Shown here one piece after another: positions 9,719-29,181 of a stretch of 31,104 bases of DNA; within the stretch, counting starts at the first letter, position 1, and each line of letters opens with the position of its first letter. Under the pieces are notes generated by a model, which searched no databases, had not been told where the DNA came from, and saw only the letters and a program-made list of their open reading frames with translations. This stretch comes from a virus. The stretch is taken from positions 1-31,104 of IMG/VR virus record IMGVR_UViG_3300036770_001505; one strand, 5' to 3'. Both the position numbers and the translations under genes were made by a program.

Positions 9719-10468
9719 TTAGTCTAATCTTTTATATTTTAAAATCGAACCCTTCCACGTTCTCGCAGTTGTAGAACCAGAATTTAATGCAAATTTGAAA
9801 TTTAATACAGCATCAGCTGAAGCGTAAAATCCAAAATTAACAGTAGCGGTAACTATACCTGATACATTTGGAATACTACCAGTATTTTGACCAATTACTA
9901 CACTATTTGTAACGTTTGTACTTGTAGCTATTATAGCAGTAACAGTAGCTGAATTTGAAGCATTACGACAAACAATATTGCCTACTCCATTTATAGTTCC
10001 TGATGTCACACCAAATGCAAATTTGTAATCATTCAATGAACTATCTGAACTTGTAGCCAATGTCATTTCTATTAAATAATTCCCACCAGCAACAACGTTA
10101 AATTGTAAATCTGAATCATTTGTTAATGTTGTATTATTAACATCCTGATTTGCACTTTTTACAATAATACTATATCCATCACTTGGAACAACTGGTGAGC
10201 TCCCACCTACTTCAAAAAAAAAATCAGAACTTAATAACGTAGCTAATTGATAAGCATCTCCATTGAAAGGAATAGCACTTGCAGGTTCTACCTGAGTGTT
10301 ATCAATCTGGTCAGCAAAGATAGAAGTCCATTGATTGTAACCATACTTAATAACTATCTCATTAGAACTTACTACATCCAAAGCATTAACACTAACAAAT
10401 GCTTTTAAGATATTTCCAGCCGTGTCAGTCAATACTACATTTCCAGTCGATTGTTTTACTATATTCAT
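9719..10468 (-). CDS. Fibre-like / receptor-binding candidate A (duplicated N-terminal domain)
   Basis: A 249-aa protein. Residues 1-88 are about half identical to the same region of the next gene (MNIVKQSTGNVVLTDTAGN ... IVIKYGYNQWTSI ... QVEPASAIPFNGDAYQLATLL). The rest differs: a Ser/Thr/Asn-rich beta domain with QFNVVAGGNYLIEMTLATS and DYKFAFGV, like jelly-roll (C1q/TNF-like) heads of phage fibres. The shared domain is likely the virion anchor, the variable domain the binding head. The domain junction (residues 83-85, Phe-Phe-Phe) is coded by a run of ten T. It is a single base from the holin gene and 11 from its paralogue. Confidence 0.7.
   Translation of the reverse strand: MNIVKQSTGNVVLTDTAGNILKAFVSVNALDVVSSNEIVIKYGYNQWTSIFADQIDNTQVEPASAIPFNGDAYQLATLLSSDFFFEVGGSSPVVPSDGYSIIVKSANQDVNNTTLTNDSDLQFNVVAGGNYLIEMTLATSSDSSLNDYKFAFGVTSGTINGVGNIVCRNASNSATVTAIIATSTNVTNSVVIGQNTGSIPNVSGIVTATVNFGFYASADAVLNFKFALNSGSTTARTWKGSILKYKRLD
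10214..10223 (-). repeat. T10 tract at the domain junction of fibre-like protein A
   Basis: Ten consecutive T on the coding strand encode Phe83-85. A -1 shift on the tract gives TGA at once and a +1 shift gives AAG TAG, so either slip truncates the protein after its shared N-terminal domain. Confidence 0.8.
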
Positions 10469-10479
10469 TTTATCTATTT

Positions 10480-11151
10480 TTAATTTACCATATAAGTTCC
10501 TGCAATATGAAAGTTATCTGTCGTATCTAACACAAAAGGTTGTTGATGCGTAAACGGTTCATCCCTACCACTTGTACCAATATAATTCAAAGTCAAAACC
10601 TTACTACCATTGTCAACGTGACCACTTATTGAATACTGCCTTGCCGTTGAAGTATCGTGAATACATCCATCTCTTAACTGATAATTACAACAAGCCTCAA
10701 AAGGTAATTCAACATAATACTGACCAGTACCAAAGTTAGTTATATTATCAAAGTCAACTTGTATTTCAAAATGTACTACATTACCTATCTTAACATAACT
10801 ACCACTAAACATAGGCGCACCGCTAAACGTTGGCTGTATTCCACCTATCGTGCCGCCATTGACAGTAAAGTTAGTCTTTTGGCTGATACTTAACTCAAAA
10901 AAAAAAGAGCCTGATAATAAGCTAATCAAATCATTTGCATCTCCATTGAATGCCACCAATCCTGCTGGTTCTATTTGAGTATTATCTACATTACTTACAA
11001 TGATAGATGTCCATTGATTGAAACCGTACTTAATTATTATCTCATTATCATTAACTAACTCTAAGCTATTGACATTTATCAAAACCTTTGTAGCGTTTCC
11101 ACTTGCATCAGTCAGAATAACGTTCCCACTTGCAGTTTTAATTATATTCAT
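10480..11151 (-). CDS. Fibre-like / receptor-binding candidate B (duplicated N-terminal domain)
   Basis: A 223-aa protein with the same N-terminal domain as its downstream neighbour (MNIIKTASGNVILTDASGN ... IIIKYGFNQWTSI ... QIEPAGLVAFNGDANDLISLL). It has an unrelated C-terminal beta-rich domain containing PTFSGAPMFSGSYVKIGNVVHFEIQVDFDN and GQYYVELPFEACCNY. That block resembles beta domains at the tips of phage tail fibres. Tandem copies of one anchor with two heads suggest two host ligands or an older duplication followed by domain swapping. The junction is again coded by T10 at the same codons (83-85). The gene starts one base after the connector gene, in the head operon. Confidence 0.7.
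   Translation of the reverse strand: MNIIKTASGNVILTDASGNATKVLINVNSLELVNDNEIIIKYGFNQWTSIIVSNVDNTQIEPAGLVAFNGDANDLISLLSGSFFFELSISQKTNFTVNGGTIGGIQPTFSGAPMFSGSYVKIGNVVHFEIQVDFDNITNFGTGQYYVELPFEACCNYQLRDGCIHDTSTARQYSISGHVDNGSKVLTLNYIGTSGRDEPFTHQQPFVLDTTDNFHIAGTYMVN
10897..10906 (-). repeat. T10 tract at the domain junction of fibre-like protein B
   Basis: Ten T on the coding strand encode Phe83-85, the same codon positions as in the paralogue. A -1 shift reads TGA immediately; a +1 shift reads AGT TAA. Slippage in either direction would leave only the shared N-terminal domain. Confidence 0.8.
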
Positions 11152-18598: not shown

Positions 18599-21493
18599 TT
18601 AAAATGTTGAATTTGCTTTAATCGTTTTTTTATCGTTTCTACTCTTTTCGACTTCATAGTCTGTGGTCGCAGTATATACAACTGTTAACCTATCTATTCT
18701 TTGATTGGTAGCCTTAACCATCTCATCCATTAAGTTAACTCTCATTTGCTCTGTGGCAATACTATTATTAGCATTTGATATAAGCGAAGTCGGTGCGCCT
18801 ACTAACCCACCGTTCGCAAAGTTTGGTATTTGTGCTTTCTTTAAAGTAGAGTAACCTATGCGCCTTTGTTGGCTTTCGTTTAGGACTATTTCGCCAGTCT
18901 TTAACGTTGCAAGTACATTATCGCCGTTCGATAGTGGTTTGATATTACCTCTACTTGTAACCCTGCCACCGTTAGCGAATTGAACGATGTCATCACCCTT
19001 ACCTACAACCCCACCTTTTGCCAATGGTTGAGCCGCAATAATAGCAGTCTGAGCCGCACCAGCTATACCTACTGCAATAGCGTCAAATATTTGCGCACCA
19101 GTTGCAAGTTTTAAAGGATTACCTCCAGCAGTTAAAGCCGCAGTAACCGCTAAAGCCGTGTTAATAATACTTTGAATTATAGCTATCGCCTTTGCTTTTT
19201 TAGCTGCTTCCTTCTCAGCTTGTTCCCTCTCTTTAGCTATTGCTTTAGCGTTTTCCTTTTCATTTCTTAGTTGTTGCTCTAAGTACCTACGCTCTAAACC
19301 AGTAGCATTTTGTAAGCGTTCCTCTAATTCGCTTTGTATTTGTTCATTCGCTTCAGCATCCTTTTCTAAGCGTTTTAATCTCGCTTCGTCACCAGCCTGA
19401 ATAAGACTTGAAACCGTATCAAAAGCTAATTGAGTATATTTAGTAGCATTATCAATATCTTTTTGTAATTGAGCCTTTCTTTTTTCTCCATCTTCCTTTT
19501 CCTTTTGTGTTCTTTTTTCAGCTTCAGCATTCGCATTCTTAGTTCTATCCGCATCCAACTTAGCCAAATCTGCATTTAATTTGATGTTTTGGCTGAGTAT
19601 AGTATCTTTCTCATCTTGAGTTAAACCCTCTATTGTATTGATTTTGTAAGTGTTAAGGTCTATCTCATCTTGAATTCTTTGGCGTTCTAAATTTAAAATA
19701 TCTTCTTGATATTGTTTGTTAATCTCTTCTAATTTATCTTTATTATTTCCAGCAGCAATTACCTGCTCATTATATGCCTGTTCTAATAAATTACGTTGGT
19801 TTTCATAGTTCCTTTGTTCAACAATCTTTATTGCATCAAACTCTTTTTTCTTTAATTCAATAAGTTTGTCAGATTGGTCTTTATTTATTTTCTCAATCTC
19901 TTTATCCGCTTGTAATTCAATTGCAGTTTTTAGTTTAGCAGTTTCATCAGCTGCTTTTTGCTCTTCAGCTTTGATAGTATCATTTAAGGTCTTAACCTCT
20001 TTGGCATTTGCACCATAAAGTTTAATAGCTTCATTTAACCTTTCTTGATTAGCTTTCTTTTGTTCTGTTAAAGTCTTTTGAATACTCTCAAGTTCTTTTT
20101 GTGTATTTTGTTCTGCTAATTGTCTACGCTTTTCAAACTCATCCTCTAATAAATTTGTAATAATAGTATTGGTTTTTTCAGTAATAGTTTTTTGAAGTTG
20201 CAATGCAGCCTCTTGCAACTTTAACTCATCCTCTTGGAATTTCTTTCTTGCATCAGCTATTTCTTTTTGTTTAGCTAATTGCTCTTCATAAGCCTTTCTT
20301 TGTTGTTCTTGAATAGCTTTATCCTCTGCCTTAATAGCATTTTTAGCTTCTACAATTTGAGCATTAAGTTCCTTAGTCTTATTAAAATTATCTGTTTGTA
20401 CTTTTATTTTTTCGGCTTCTAATTGAGCCTCTTCATTTAAAGCATCCTTATTACTTTTTGATAATGAATTTTGTGCTTTTTTAATTTCAAATTTTTGTGT
20501 AGCAATATCCTCGTTTGCTTTTAAAATTAGCTTTTCCTTAGCAACCGCCTCTTCTAAAAACTTTAACCTTTCAGCATTTGTGAAATTATCTTTTTGAGCA
20601 GCCTTGTTTCTAAGTTCAGCAATGTCGCGTTCTATCTTTGCCTGTTCAGTTAAGTTTTTTCTAACTTGCAAGTCCAAAGCATCTTGTTGTTTTGCTAATT
20701 GTGCCGCCTTATTAGCTACCTTACTAAGCCTTGTTTCTGCTCCACCTAAATAGTTTATAAGATTATTTACTCCAGTTCCTATTCCATCAATAATTTTAAA
20801 GATAGCACCCCCAACCGTTGAAACTACATCACTAATAACACCAAATACTGAACTAAAAACCGCGCTTAATCTACGTAAAGCATTCTGCCCCTCTTCACTA
20901 CTTGTAAAGAATGTTTTTAATGCCATTACAATAGCACCAATAGCAGCAATAACTAAACCTATTGGTCCAAGCATAAAACGAACTGCCACACCAATACTTT
21001 GAAATAAACCTATTGCTGCCTTTGCAGGTGCACCCAAAGCACCCATTGAACTTGCAGCTTTGTCAAAAGCACTACCATAGTTCCCTACATTACGTTGAAA
21101 CTGTCCGACACTTGCATCAGTATCCTTTAATTGTTTGTCTAAGGCTTGTATTTGTTTAAGTAAATCCTGACCGCCCTTAGTTGCACCTTGACCACTTACC
21201 GCAAGGTCTTTATATTCCTTTCTAAGCCTATTTAATTTGTTGCTCAATTGGTCATAAGCCCCCAATGCTCCAGATGTTTCCTTAAATGATTTATTAAGGT
21301 CATCCTGTTGCTTTTTAATACCTGCTTGTTCAGCCTTTAATTTAGCTAATTTTTGAGCGGTCTGAGTATATTCCTCCGTTCCAACTGTTAATCCATTAAG
21401 TGATTTTTGAGTGTCCTTAATAGCTTGGTTTAATTGGTCTATATTTTGAACGCCATCTATATTTATACTAAAGCCTACTACTGTATTTGCCAT
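18599..21493 (-). CDS. Tail tape measure protein
   Basis: A 964-aa protein that sets tail length and may help pass DNA across the envelope. The start MANTVVGFSINIDGVQNIDQLNQAIKDTQ and DASVGQFQRNVGNYGSAFDKA (126-146) are typical of Bacteroidota phage tape measures. A hydrophobic segment lies at about 165-196. A very long charged coiled coil (about 250-720, Gln/Lys/Glu-rich) follows. The C-terminal region has a second hydrophobic stretch (ALAVTAALTAGGNPLKLA ... GIAGAAQTAIIAAQPLAKGGVVG) and repeated FANGG motifs. At about 1.5 angstrom per residue the tail would be near 145 nm. It directly follows two large tail proteins. Confidence 0.93.
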   Translation of the reverse strand: MANTVVGFSINIDGVQNIDQLNQAIKDTQKSLNGLTVGTEEYTQTAQKLAKLKAEQAGIKKQQDDLNKSFKETSGALGAYDQLSNKLNRLRKEYKDLAVSGQGATKGGQDLLKQIQALDKQLKDTDASVGQFQRNVGNYGSAFDKAASSMGALGAPAKAAIGLFQSIGVAVRFMLGPIGLVIAAIGAIVMALKTFFTSSEEGQNALRRLSAVFSSVFGVISDVVSTVGGAIFKIIDGIGTGVNNLINYLGGAETRLSKVANKAAQLAKQQDALDLQVRKNLTEQAKIERDIAELRNKAAQKDNFTNAERLKFLEEAVAKEKLILKANEDIATQKFEIKKAQNSLSKSNKDALNEEAQLEAEKIKVQTDNFNKTKELNAQIVEAKNAIKAEDKAIQEQQRKAYEEQLAKQKEIADARKKFQEDELKLQEAALQLQKTITEKTNTIITNLLEDEFEKRRQLAEQNTQKELESIQKTLTEQKKANQERLNEAIKLYGANAKEVKTLNDTIKAEEQKAADETAKLKTAIELQADKEIEKINKDQSDKLIELKKKEFDAIKIVEQRNYENQRNLLEQAYNEQVIAAGNNKDKLEEINKQYQEDILNLERQRIQDEIDLNTYKINTIEGLTQDEKDTILSQNIKLNADLAKLDADRTKNANAEAEKRTQKEKEDGEKRKAQLQKDIDNATKYTQLAFDTVSSLIQAGDEARLKRLEKDAEANEQIQSELEERLQNATGLERRYLEQQLRNEKENAKAIAKEREQAEKEAAKKAKAIAIIQSIINTALAVTAALTAGGNPLKLATGAQIFDAIAVGIAGAAQTAIIAAQPLAKGGVVGKGDDIVQFANGGRVTSRGNIKPLSNGDNVLATLKTGEIVLNESQQRRIGYSTLKKAQIPNFANGGLVGAPTSLISNANNSIATEQMRVNLMDEMVKATNQRIDRLTVVYTATTDYEVEKSRNDKKTIKANSTF

Positions 21494-26386: not shown

Positions 26387-26583
26387 TTCTCGTTATTATG
26401 CCATAAGTTAATAAGTTCTCTCTTTACCTCGTTATAAAATTCTATCTCGTTTTTATCTATAAAGACCTCAAAGAAATCAATCATTTCGTTTACATAAAAC
26501 AGGCATTTATCTAAGTCGCTAAACAACTCATTTTCGCCTTTATATCTCATATAAATTTCATAAGCCGTATCCTTTGGGTTCAT
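26383..26583 (-). CDS. Small conserved phage protein, paralogue of the gene at 17375
   Basis: A 66-aa helical protein: MNPKDTAYEIYMRYKGENELFSDLDKCLFYVNEMIDFFE, ending FYNEVKRELINLWHNNEK. It shows the plan of the 76-aa protein at 17375-17605 (MxxKDxAxxL/I ... central VxxxI/V ... YW/Y-xxVKxEI/LxxI/L) but without the longer middle. Its start overlaps the previous frame's stop by 4 bases (ATGA), typical of coupled genes. Function unknown. Confidence 0.68.
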   Translation of the reverse strand: MNPKDTAYEIYMRYKGENELFSDLDKCLFYVNEMIDFFEVFIDKNEIEFYNEVKRELINLWHNNEK

Positions 26584-26864
26584 CGTTTTTTCATTAACAC
26601 TTCTTGATATCTTTGTTGGTATTCGCTTTCAGCTGCCACACTACTAAGATAGGTAAACGCTTCGTATAAGTTAGCAAGTTCCGCACTTCGCATCGGTGTT
26701 TCATCTGGTCTGTTAAATATACCGCTTTCAGCTATCTGTTTTATTGTCAAGTACCAACCGAATCCATCATTTAGTTTATCAATTCCTGCCTTAACTGCAT
26801 CAAAGTCTGCGCGTTTGTATAGGTTAGCAAACTTAGTCGCAATACTTCGATTCGCCTCAACAAA
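26580..26864 (-). CDS. -1 frame extension of the chaperone-like gene (GT-like part)
   Basis: This frame is open from about 26915 to the stop at 26580 and overlaps the preceding gene by 94 bases past the slip site. It has no ATG before residue 70 of the longest reading; the only upstream start is a TTG at 26898-26900 with no ribosome site, and a TGA lies not far before it. Yet it reads as a convincing protein: ANRSIATKFANLYKRADFDAVKAG, FGWYLTIKQIAESGIF, NLYEAFTYLSSVAAESEYQQRYQEVL. The simplest reading is -1 frameshifting from the upstream gene at 26862-26870. This adds 94 residues and makes a 319-aa fusion, as in tail chaperone pairs G/GT. Proof is lacking. Confidence 0.65.
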   Translation of the reverse strand, partial: FVEANRSIATKFANLYKRADFDAVKAGIDKLNDGFGWYLTIKQIAESGIFNRPDETPMRSAELANLYEAFTYLSSVAAESEYQQRYQEVLMKKR

Positions 26865-27538
26865 AAAAAAGCTACCCTCCAGCAATCTAACAAGTTCCAA
26901 GATAAGAATAAATTTTCACGTTTTAACAACTTATCGGAATATTGCTCATCTTTTTTTCGTACAAGTACACACATCATTTTTGCAAGTGCCTTCCATTCGC
27001 CGTTCTCTACCTTTGACAGGTTAGCTTGAAATTGTGCCGCTTCAGCAAATTCTATAACGGTACTGTCACTCATAAACCTTTCAGGCAAATACCAAACTTC
27101 TCCATTTACTTCCAATACGTTTGAATATTCGACTTCTGGCAGTTGGTTAAATATCTTTGTAGTGTGAATGTATAAACCTGTCAAATGGTCTACTCGCATA
27201 CCTTCGCCACCATCCTGACCTAAAATAAACGGTACTGATAAACCACTAAAAAAAGATATTACTCTTGCATAGTAAGGGAATACTTGTTGATATTGAACAA
27301 CGTCATCAATAACCGAAGTAGCTTCGTCAAGTTCTTTACGTGCAAGTTCTAAGCCCTTATTATCTTTCAGTTCAATAGCTTCAGCAATCTTAATGTTAGC
27401 CGCGTCAATATCCTTTAATACTTTTGGCTTTGTGCTTTCAACAAATTCTAAGTATTCTAAGTATTGTTTCAAGGTCACATCTGAAAGTGATTCAGGATAC
27501 TCAAATGCTTGTCCGTTATCTGTCTTAAACTTAATCAT
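26771..27538 (-). CDS. Candidate tail assembly chaperone (0-frame, G-like part)
   Basis: The start is the ATG at 27536-27538 (MIKFKTDNGQAFEYPESLSDVTLKQYLEYLEFVE), 8 bases before the upstream stop; earlier codons are open but overlap the neighbour by 74 bases. The product is 255 aa and ends LLRRIEVLRLSLLTYTNAQT and ten further residues. Its first block resembles short tail-chaperone type openings, with the rest helical (YARVISFFSGLSVPFILGQDGGEGMRV; WYLPERFMSDSTVIEFAEAAQFQANLSKVENGEWKALAKMMCVLVRKKDEQYS). The gene follows a small protein gene in the tail operon about 5 kb before the tape measure. A T9 run at 26862-26870 lets ribosomes shift to the -1 frame. Confidence 0.65.
   Translation of the reverse strand: MIKFKTDNGQAFEYPESLSDVTLKQYLEYLEFVESTKPKVLKDIDAANIKIAEAIELKDNKGLELARKELDEATSVIDDVVQYQQVFPYYARVISFFSGLSVPFILGQDGGEGMRVDHLTGLYIHTTKIFNQLPEVEYSNVLEVNGEVWYLPERFMSDSTVIEFAEAAQFQANLSKVENGEWKALAKMMCVLVRKKDEQYSDKLLKRENLFLSWNLLDCWRVAFFLLRRIEVLRLSLLTYTNAQTLMQLRQELIN
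26862..26870 (-). promoter_or_regulatory. Predicted -1 ribosomal frameshift site (T TTT TTT)
   Basis: In the 0 frame the coding strand reads GCT TTT TTT TTG, containing the slippery heptamer T TTT TTT. Slipping back one base gives TTT GTT GAG GCG, entering the 26580-26864 frame. A purine-rich GGAGGG (26875-26880) stands a few bases upstream and could act as the SD-like stimulator known from dnaX. Confidence 0.65.
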
Positions 27539-27993: not shown

Positions 27994-29181
27994 TTATCCA
28001 AATGCTAATAAACCCTTACCTTTATTTGCTGCTAACATACCCAAAGCCCAGTAACGTGTAGCATCCCAAGTATGGTTAAAAGCATCAATAGGCTGGTTTG
28101 TTCTATTTCCACTTCGCTCTTCTTTCCACTTATAAGCCTTTGCCTCTTTAATAAAGTTTATAGAATCCTTAGTTATGTTAATCGTTCCGTATTGCTTAAG
28201 TAAACTAATTGAATAACTTATTGAATCTGGTCCTTTGTCCGCTGGTCTTATATTCCAACCGTATAATTTTAATTCCTGAATACTTTTTGGGTCAGCACTA
28301 TCAGCAAATATAATACTATTTTTTGATATATTGTTACTTCTCAACAAGTTGTTAATGTCTGAGTTCGTTAAGCCCTTTTGATAAATAACTTCCCTTGTAT
28401 ATATTTGCCCATCAGATATTCCACAATGAATTAAAGTAGTAGGGTCATTGGTAAAACCAAAGTCTAAACCAAAAGCCTCCTTATTCAGATATTGTGGCAT
28501 TGAATCGACTATTTTGTAATCAAATACTAAGCCTTCTATTTTCCCAGTTTGCCCTAAACCGTAAACGCGCCATAGTTGAGGGTCTTGAAATTGTAAACGC
28601 TCAATACTTTCAGTTATGCTTTCAGATATAAAAGGATTGTGTTTATAGTTTGATATAAAGTAAGCAACGTTTGGAAGTTTCAAAACTTTTTCGTGAACCC
28701 AAAATTCAGCATTTGGATTGTAGTCTATGTAAGTTCTATAAGATGTTCTTAAATCTAATTCAGCATAGATACTATAATCAATACCGTTCGCCTCGTTTAC
28801 AAATAGAACATTACGCTTACCGTTCTTTGCATCCTGACTACTTTCATAACTTGTAAATTCTATTATCGAACCGTTTTTAAAATGGTATATCTTGTCTGAG
28901 CCGTTCCAACGGTCTATCATTGATTGAATAGCTATTGATGTACTTACAATATTTGAAGCATCTCTTATTGCACCTCTCTTTAAGTTTGGTATATCCTGAC
29001 CGACTACCGTAATTACAAAACGTGAGTTTTCTATTGCTAACTTGAATAGAACTTGTAATATAGAATAAGTCTTTGAACTGGATGAGCCACCCTGATTAAC
29101 GCAAATTATTTTCTTATTACTATCTACATTCGCGTATCTTTCAGGTTCGGCATTCCATAAAAAAACTGGTGTTGTTTGCAT
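27994..29181 (-). CDS. terL: Terminase large subunit (packaging ATPase/nuclease)
   Basis: A 395-aa packaging motor. The ATPase part shows a Walker A-like QGGSSSSKT (30-38), Walker B VLFVNEAN (125-132), and the coupling motif YIDYNPNAEFWVH (151-163). The nuclease part has FGLDFGFTNDPTTL (238-250, Asp240), IIFADSADPKSI (290-301, Asp294) and PIDAFNHTWDATRYW (364-378, Asp366), the acidic metal-binding set of the RNase H-like terminase nuclease. The length is somewhat short but complete for the PBSX-like type. It overlaps the small subunit gene by one base and is followed by the tail promoter region. Confidence 0.92.
   Translation of the reverse strand: MQTTPVFLWNAEPERYANVDSNKKIICVNQGGSSSSKTYSILQVLFKLAIENSRFVITVVGQDIPNLKRGAIRDASNIVSTSIAIQSMIDRWNGSDKIYHFKNGSIIEFTSYESSQDAKNGKRNVLFVNEANGIDYSIYAELDLRTSYRTYIDYNPNAEFWVHEKVLKLPNVAYFISNYKHNPFISESITESIERLQFQDPQLWRVYGLGQTGKIEGLVFDYKIVDSMPQYLNKEAFGLDFGFTNDPTTLIHCGISDGQIYTREVIYQKGLTNSDINNLLRSNNISKNSIIFADSADPKSIQELKLYGWNIRPADKGPDSISYSISLLKQYGTINITKDSINFIKEAKAYKWKEERSGNRTNQPIDAFNHTWDATRYWALGMLAANKGKGLLAFG

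Follow-up and report, generated by a model that had tools for sequence, protein, structure and literature searches.

A likely -1 ribosomal frameshift at a T run in a candidate tail assembly chaperone gene of Bacteroidota phages

In phage lambda, the binding partner of gpG is the tape measure protein, and that of the T part of the frameshifted product gpGT is the major tail protein (PMC5009743). Here we describe a gene in a viral DNA stretch of 31,104 nucleotides (IMG/VR record IMGVR_UViG_3300036770_001505, positions 1 to 31,104; hereafter the window) that on balance we think likely to encode two proteins in a lambda G/GT-like manner, through -1 programmed ribosomal frameshifting. Most ribosomes would pass the T run and continue to the 0-frame stop to give the short protein. 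Those that slip, a minority, would do so on T_TTT_TTT with tRNA-Phe on TTT in the P site as well as the A site, and by shifting one base backwards would produce a 319-residue form that carries a further domain of about 94 residues. If the parallel with lambda gpG/gpGT holds, the short form would serve as a coat for the tape measure protein, with the extra domain bringing in tail-tube subunits. The gene may work like lambda G/GT, and by descent it is only a candidate member of that family. All of its features lie on the minus strand, a point left unstated in the original prediction, which had been made by a model from the letters of the window and had proposed the same -1 shift and 319-residue fusion.

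The two reading frames and their conservation

The 0-frame open reading frame (ORF) encodes a gpG-like product of 255 amino acids (26771..27538), with full-length homologues at 74-95% identity, and the predicted gpGT-like fusion spans 26580..27538. A run of nine Ts (T9, 26862..26870) is read as GCT TTT TTT TTG in frame 0 and as AGC TTT TTT TTT GTT in frame -1, and holds the putative slippery heptamer T_TTT_TTT in frame at 26870-26864, a phase that is kept in ~115 loci. Past the slip the 0 frame has a tail of 30 codons and a stop (26771..26863), and the -1 frame stays open down to a stop codon at 26582-26580, giving a gpT-like extension of 94 codons (26583..26864) that is 83-98% identical in relatives. 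Its first ATG is 57 codons past the slip, which bears out the earlier statement that the second frame lacks an ATG over most of its length; a TTG is present at 26900, along with other TTGs. We found eight in-frame T_TTT_TTT sites in the ORFs of the window, and only the one in the T9 run is followed by a long open -1 frame (96 codons after the heptamer), the seven others, including one at 27254 in the same 0-frame gene, meeting a -1 stop within 2-3 codons.

A tblastn search with the window proteins against named phages gave no matches, and relatives were reached instead through the neighbouring terminase large subunit gene upstream (27994..29181; phrog_5653, E 1.8e-31), which served as synteny anchor for 80 viral contigs and 80 bacterial-genome loci. 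Homologues in four viral contigs (95, 74 and 74% identity, and one fragment) have T9, the same 0-frame stop and a -1 frame that is open only past the run; relatives about 50-95% identical in the 0-frame product keep T9, its phase, the position of the 0-frame stop and the -1 domain. The pair of frames stands directly or shortly 3' of a related terminase in 46 viral-contig entries and in 69/80 of the bacterial-genome loci, seven more sites were located by hand, and further cases lie behind inserted genes. When the fused proteins are grouped at 50% identity there are 19 clusters, and at 40% there are 14. According to the genome records the hosts are Bacteroidota, mainly Mucilaginibacter, with further prophages in Hymenobacter, Chitinophaga and Pelobium; many of the loci are Mucilaginibacter prophages and as such non-independent. 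The related terminase and chaperone-like locus occur in very many Mucilaginibacter species (L120-L186, L198), usually with one match per genome, and this widespread locus is possibly a domesticated or gene-transfer-agent-like element.

In five Mucilaginibacter and related loci (L129, L138, L145, L159, L174) the 0-frame gene ends at the slip site, for the most part with GCA TAG or a sequence like it. What comes next is a coiled-coil-like reading frame and no -1 domain; the -1 extension seems to have been lost or displaced there.

Selection on the two frames is a further point in favour of the frameshift. Beyond the 0-frame stop, nonsynonymous and synonymous divergence in the -1 frame (dN/dS, pairwise counts on 30-64 codons with dS saturated in several pairs) was 0.07/1.83 between the window and its relative L003, 0.04/0.55 between two Hymenobacter loci and 0.20/1.53 between two Mucilaginibacter loci, and dN was well below dS also in the overlap when read in frame -1. 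The 0-frame tail past the run gave 0.32/0.21 against L003 and 0.25/0.19, 0.25/0.14 and 0.25/0.12 in three prophage pairs, with no sign of protein-level selection in these closer pairs and a less clear signal in more distant pairs of the window group. Because dN lies below dS in frame -1, and equals or exceeds it in the 0-frame tail of the closer pairs, the frame in use appears to switch at the run; to judge from these codon counts, the frame under selection changes there.

Additional support comes from relatives in which the two halves are naturally joined. Using a profile built from 116 fused proteins, we found that two single ORFs match it in one domain across the junction (L056, residues 147-265, E 7e-15; L112, residues 97-259, E 4e-14), and that the Bacteroides-type single ORFs L013, L016, L026 and L039 match it in two pieces, one on either side of the shift. 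An earlier profile comparison with the Bacteroides single-ORF family, made with four near-identical sequences, had not been significant, and it was the 116-sequence profile that made the match clear.

The arrangement is also present in an isolated phage. Gene 38 of Nonlabens phage P12024S, just past the terminase, has T9 and a -1 domain in the next frame that is annotated as a separate gene of 55 amino acids; the fused protein, with the predicted junction peptide ILFFLSFR, reaches 56 bits with the profile and the 0-frame part alone 36, and tape-measure-like and neck-like genes come in the same order. In the part of Flavobacterium phage FpV9 that was read we saw no recognisable copy. Flavobacterium phage 6H (L201; 10048-10927, minus strand) has a 191-residue gene resembling the 0-frame family, followed by an unannotated gap of ~300 bases whose -1 frame encodes a C-terminal domain of similar appearance; we did not count it as a family case, as a TAG directly follows T_TTT_TTC, which would be a sequence error or another mechanism. 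Taken together, the comparisons suggest that the change of frame is very probably put to use.

Position of the gene and likely role of its products

The tape measure gene (18599..21493; phrog_20660, E 3e-8) starts, at 21493, 5.1 kb downstream of the frameshift gene, with six genes intervening, and a gene of 114 amino acids sits between the terminase and the frameshift gene. The distance to the tape measure agrees with the original prediction, which had called the place unusual; this second part does not hold among the relatives, where the position just past the terminase is the usual one for the frameshift gene in these phages. In the window and its relatives the terminase is followed, in much the same order, by the frameshift gene, one terminator-like and one neck-like gene, a pair of large genes and, where the record reaches, the tape measure gene. 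The terminator and neck labels are weak ones that derive from low-scoring PHROG matches and from notes in the annotation of relatives. A 433-residue product (24940-23639) is a candidate tube protein. In L060, L064, L065, L067 and L084 the terminase is separated from the chaperone-like pair by several inserted genes that by eye resemble glycosyltransferase or methyltransferase genes.

An AlphaFold model of the 0-frame product of the window, built with 32 relatives, reached a mean predicted local distance difference test score (pLDDT) of 88. Residues 138-236 (26831..27127) form a predicted domain that weakly resembles the HK97 tail assembly chaperone 2ob9. Among the matches listed, no other is a known phage tail chaperone and no other is confined to this part of the model; the stronger structural rows are unrelated proteins that align with the N-terminal helices. 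With a model of the Bacteroides single-ORF protein, the PDB yielded no convincing match. When the window model was compared with predicted viral structures, all matches were to uncharacterised phage proteins, one of them from P12024S, and we link this match to gene 38 through their equal length of 175 amino acids. From the arrangement and this one weak structural match we infer that the product is likely a tail assembly chaperone, and the G/GT-like role put forward originally is still the likeliest.

Weighing the explanations

Several observations count against a ribosomally frameshifted chaperone gene. The T9 run is longer than a heptamer needs, and is kept in 17/19 clusters in two codon phases. 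The run itself, for which the original prediction had suggested looking for non-slippery codons in homologues, is kept across ~115 loci, in favour of that prediction; the exceptions are three GC-rich loci (L100, L106 and L197, the last being Hymenobacter wooponensis), which have the -1 domain and T_TTT_ATC alone at the expected place. A stimulator was not found: a Shine-Dalgarno (SD)-like motif 4-18 bases upstream of the run is present in 0/51 Mucilaginibacter and 2/33 other relatives, below control, and a conserved downstream RNA structure or stem-loop was sought in the relatives and not found. Neither half matched a tail-chaperone family in the Pfam, PHROG and NCBIfam libraries, such families being very divergent. 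The structural match to 2ob9 (VIA-align Z 5.6, root-mean-square deviation 3.6, 84/104 residues, 16% identity) lies within the range of common helical arrangements and below the level that proves kinship. Finally, the gene and the tape measure gene are not neighbours, and the lambda G/GT-type order, directly before the tape measure and after the major tail protein, which is a usual and not a functional criterion, is not seen here. As for the GGAGGG 5' of the run (26875..26880), to which the original prediction had pointed, it is not supported as a stimulator and is probably irrelevant and non-functional, because it is unconserved in the relatives and because Bacteroidia ribosomes generally ignore SD sequences (PMC9976891), although the Bacteroidia prfB +1 frameshift does retain one (PMC8710568).

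Runs of nine Ts are recognised transcriptional slippage sites in other bacteria, and we considered that RNA polymerase slips on T9 so that some mRNAs carry ten Ts and are read straight into the -1 frame. That 17 of the 19 clusters have exactly T9 and never T8 or T10, beyond the need of the heptamer and in two codon phases, would fit such slippage, as would the lack of a ribosomal stimulator. However, the Mucilaginibacter cluster has T7 in 50 sequences, T8 in six and T9 in seven, all in the invariant phase NNT TTT TTT, and four other loci (L064, L065, L067, L084) have T_TTT_TTC with six Ts; both T7 and T6C would be poor polymerase sites. Transcriptional slippage is expected at about nine or more identical bases irrespective of codon phase, a pattern from which these fixed-phase T7 and T6C lineages depart. 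The constant element, as read from the aligned loci, is the in-frame heptamer T_TTT_TT(T/C) within a T run that varies (T6C, T7, T8, T9), and because the heptamer is constant while the length of the run varies, tandem tRNA slippage by the ribosome is favoured; we regard the frame change as probably ribosomal, with polymerase slippage as an unlikely general explanation. Polymerase slippage may contribute in the T9 lineages, and the stronger proposal that in these lineages, the window phage included, polymerase slippage sets the ratio of the two proteins, alone or jointly with the ribosome, seems to us improbable. Were it true, one gene family would have moved between two recoding mechanisms, and nine Ts would be held since other lengths give the wrong ratio. 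The two halves might instead be separate genes, with the second started at a TTG or by reinitiation, and the window and several relatives do have -1-frame TTG codons close to the run, while P12024S is annotated in this way with an ATG inside its -1 ORF. Yet across the ~115 loci, which also answers the suggestion made beforehand that homologues be searched for a separate ATG start, no start codon of the -1 frame is conserved in position, in many loci the stretch before the conserved domain has none, the -1 protein is conserved from exactly the FF of the run onwards, and single-ORF relatives exist, all of which makes independent initiation very improbable. Homopolymers are error prone, and a true T10 with one uninterrupted ORF would also join the halves. 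Independent metagenomes, genomes of isolates and the genome of an isolated phage nevertheless agree in T count and frame, and lineages with T7 or T6C show the identical frame change. On these comparisons this reading has practically no weight, and a sequencing or assembly error is excluded.

A further explanation accepts a real -1 frameshift and takes its products as virion or head-tail joining proteins in two isoforms, as in T7 10A/10B. The location between the terminase and the terminator- and neck-like genes, far from the tape measure, and the lack of a family match to known chaperones would suit such proteins, whereas the size and order of the products (a short helical protein with a -1 extension of about 90 residues), the conservation of the shift and the fold match to the HK97 chaperone speak for a chaperone. 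We consider this the more credible of the rival readings, though a doubtful one, and retain programmed frameshifting of a tail assembly chaperone gene as the likely explanation.

Significance and comparison with known systems

We found no description of the family in a search of open PubMed Central, and this frameshifted gene family apparently is unannotated and undescribed in Bacteroidota phages and prophages. It adds a large frameshifted family in a phylum without Shine-Dalgarno pairing at initiation, which may thus shift without an SD stimulator, and it suggests that genes at present annotated as unknown, in a place that annotators would skip, likely encode tail chaperones. Moreover, a single family that mixes T6C, T7, T8 and T9 sites offers a natural experiment to tell ribosomal from transcriptional slippage, testable in P12024S and in Mucilaginibacter prophages.

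Elsewhere in the window, two adjacent minus-strand genes (9719-10468 and 10480-11151) share an N-terminal part of 87 amino acids (57% identity) and then diverge, and in each a T10 run (10223 and 10906) falls at codon 82, close to where the shared part ends. The pair looks like a fibre-type domain swap, with the runs a possible slippage or recombination hot spot.

Among described systems, lambda gpG/gpGT and its counterparts in long-tailed phages share with the present gene a second ORF that lacks a conserved start of its own and a shift that is kept despite divergence of the proteins. The present gene differs in having no sequence similarity to the known families, in its position past the terminase and six genes before the tape measure, in its T_TTT_TT(T/C) site with no SD-like or stem-loop stimulator found, and in its Bacteroidota hosts. 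Compared with the HK97 chaperone 2ob9, the window protein has an additional N-terminal helical part. Transcriptional slippage at T9/A9 runs of bacterial genes (PMC5009743) resembles our case in that T9 opens a second frame, with the difference that here there are lineages with T7 or T6C in which the phase is kept. A further comparison is with phrog_28240 and the single-ORF proteins of Bacteroides phages (MT836763, BS-TP3): they share the position past the terminase, the match of the fused profile to both halves and a similar order of the following genes, but they are encoded by one continuous ORF of ~180 amino acids that needs no frameshift, and PHROGs lists their function as unknown.
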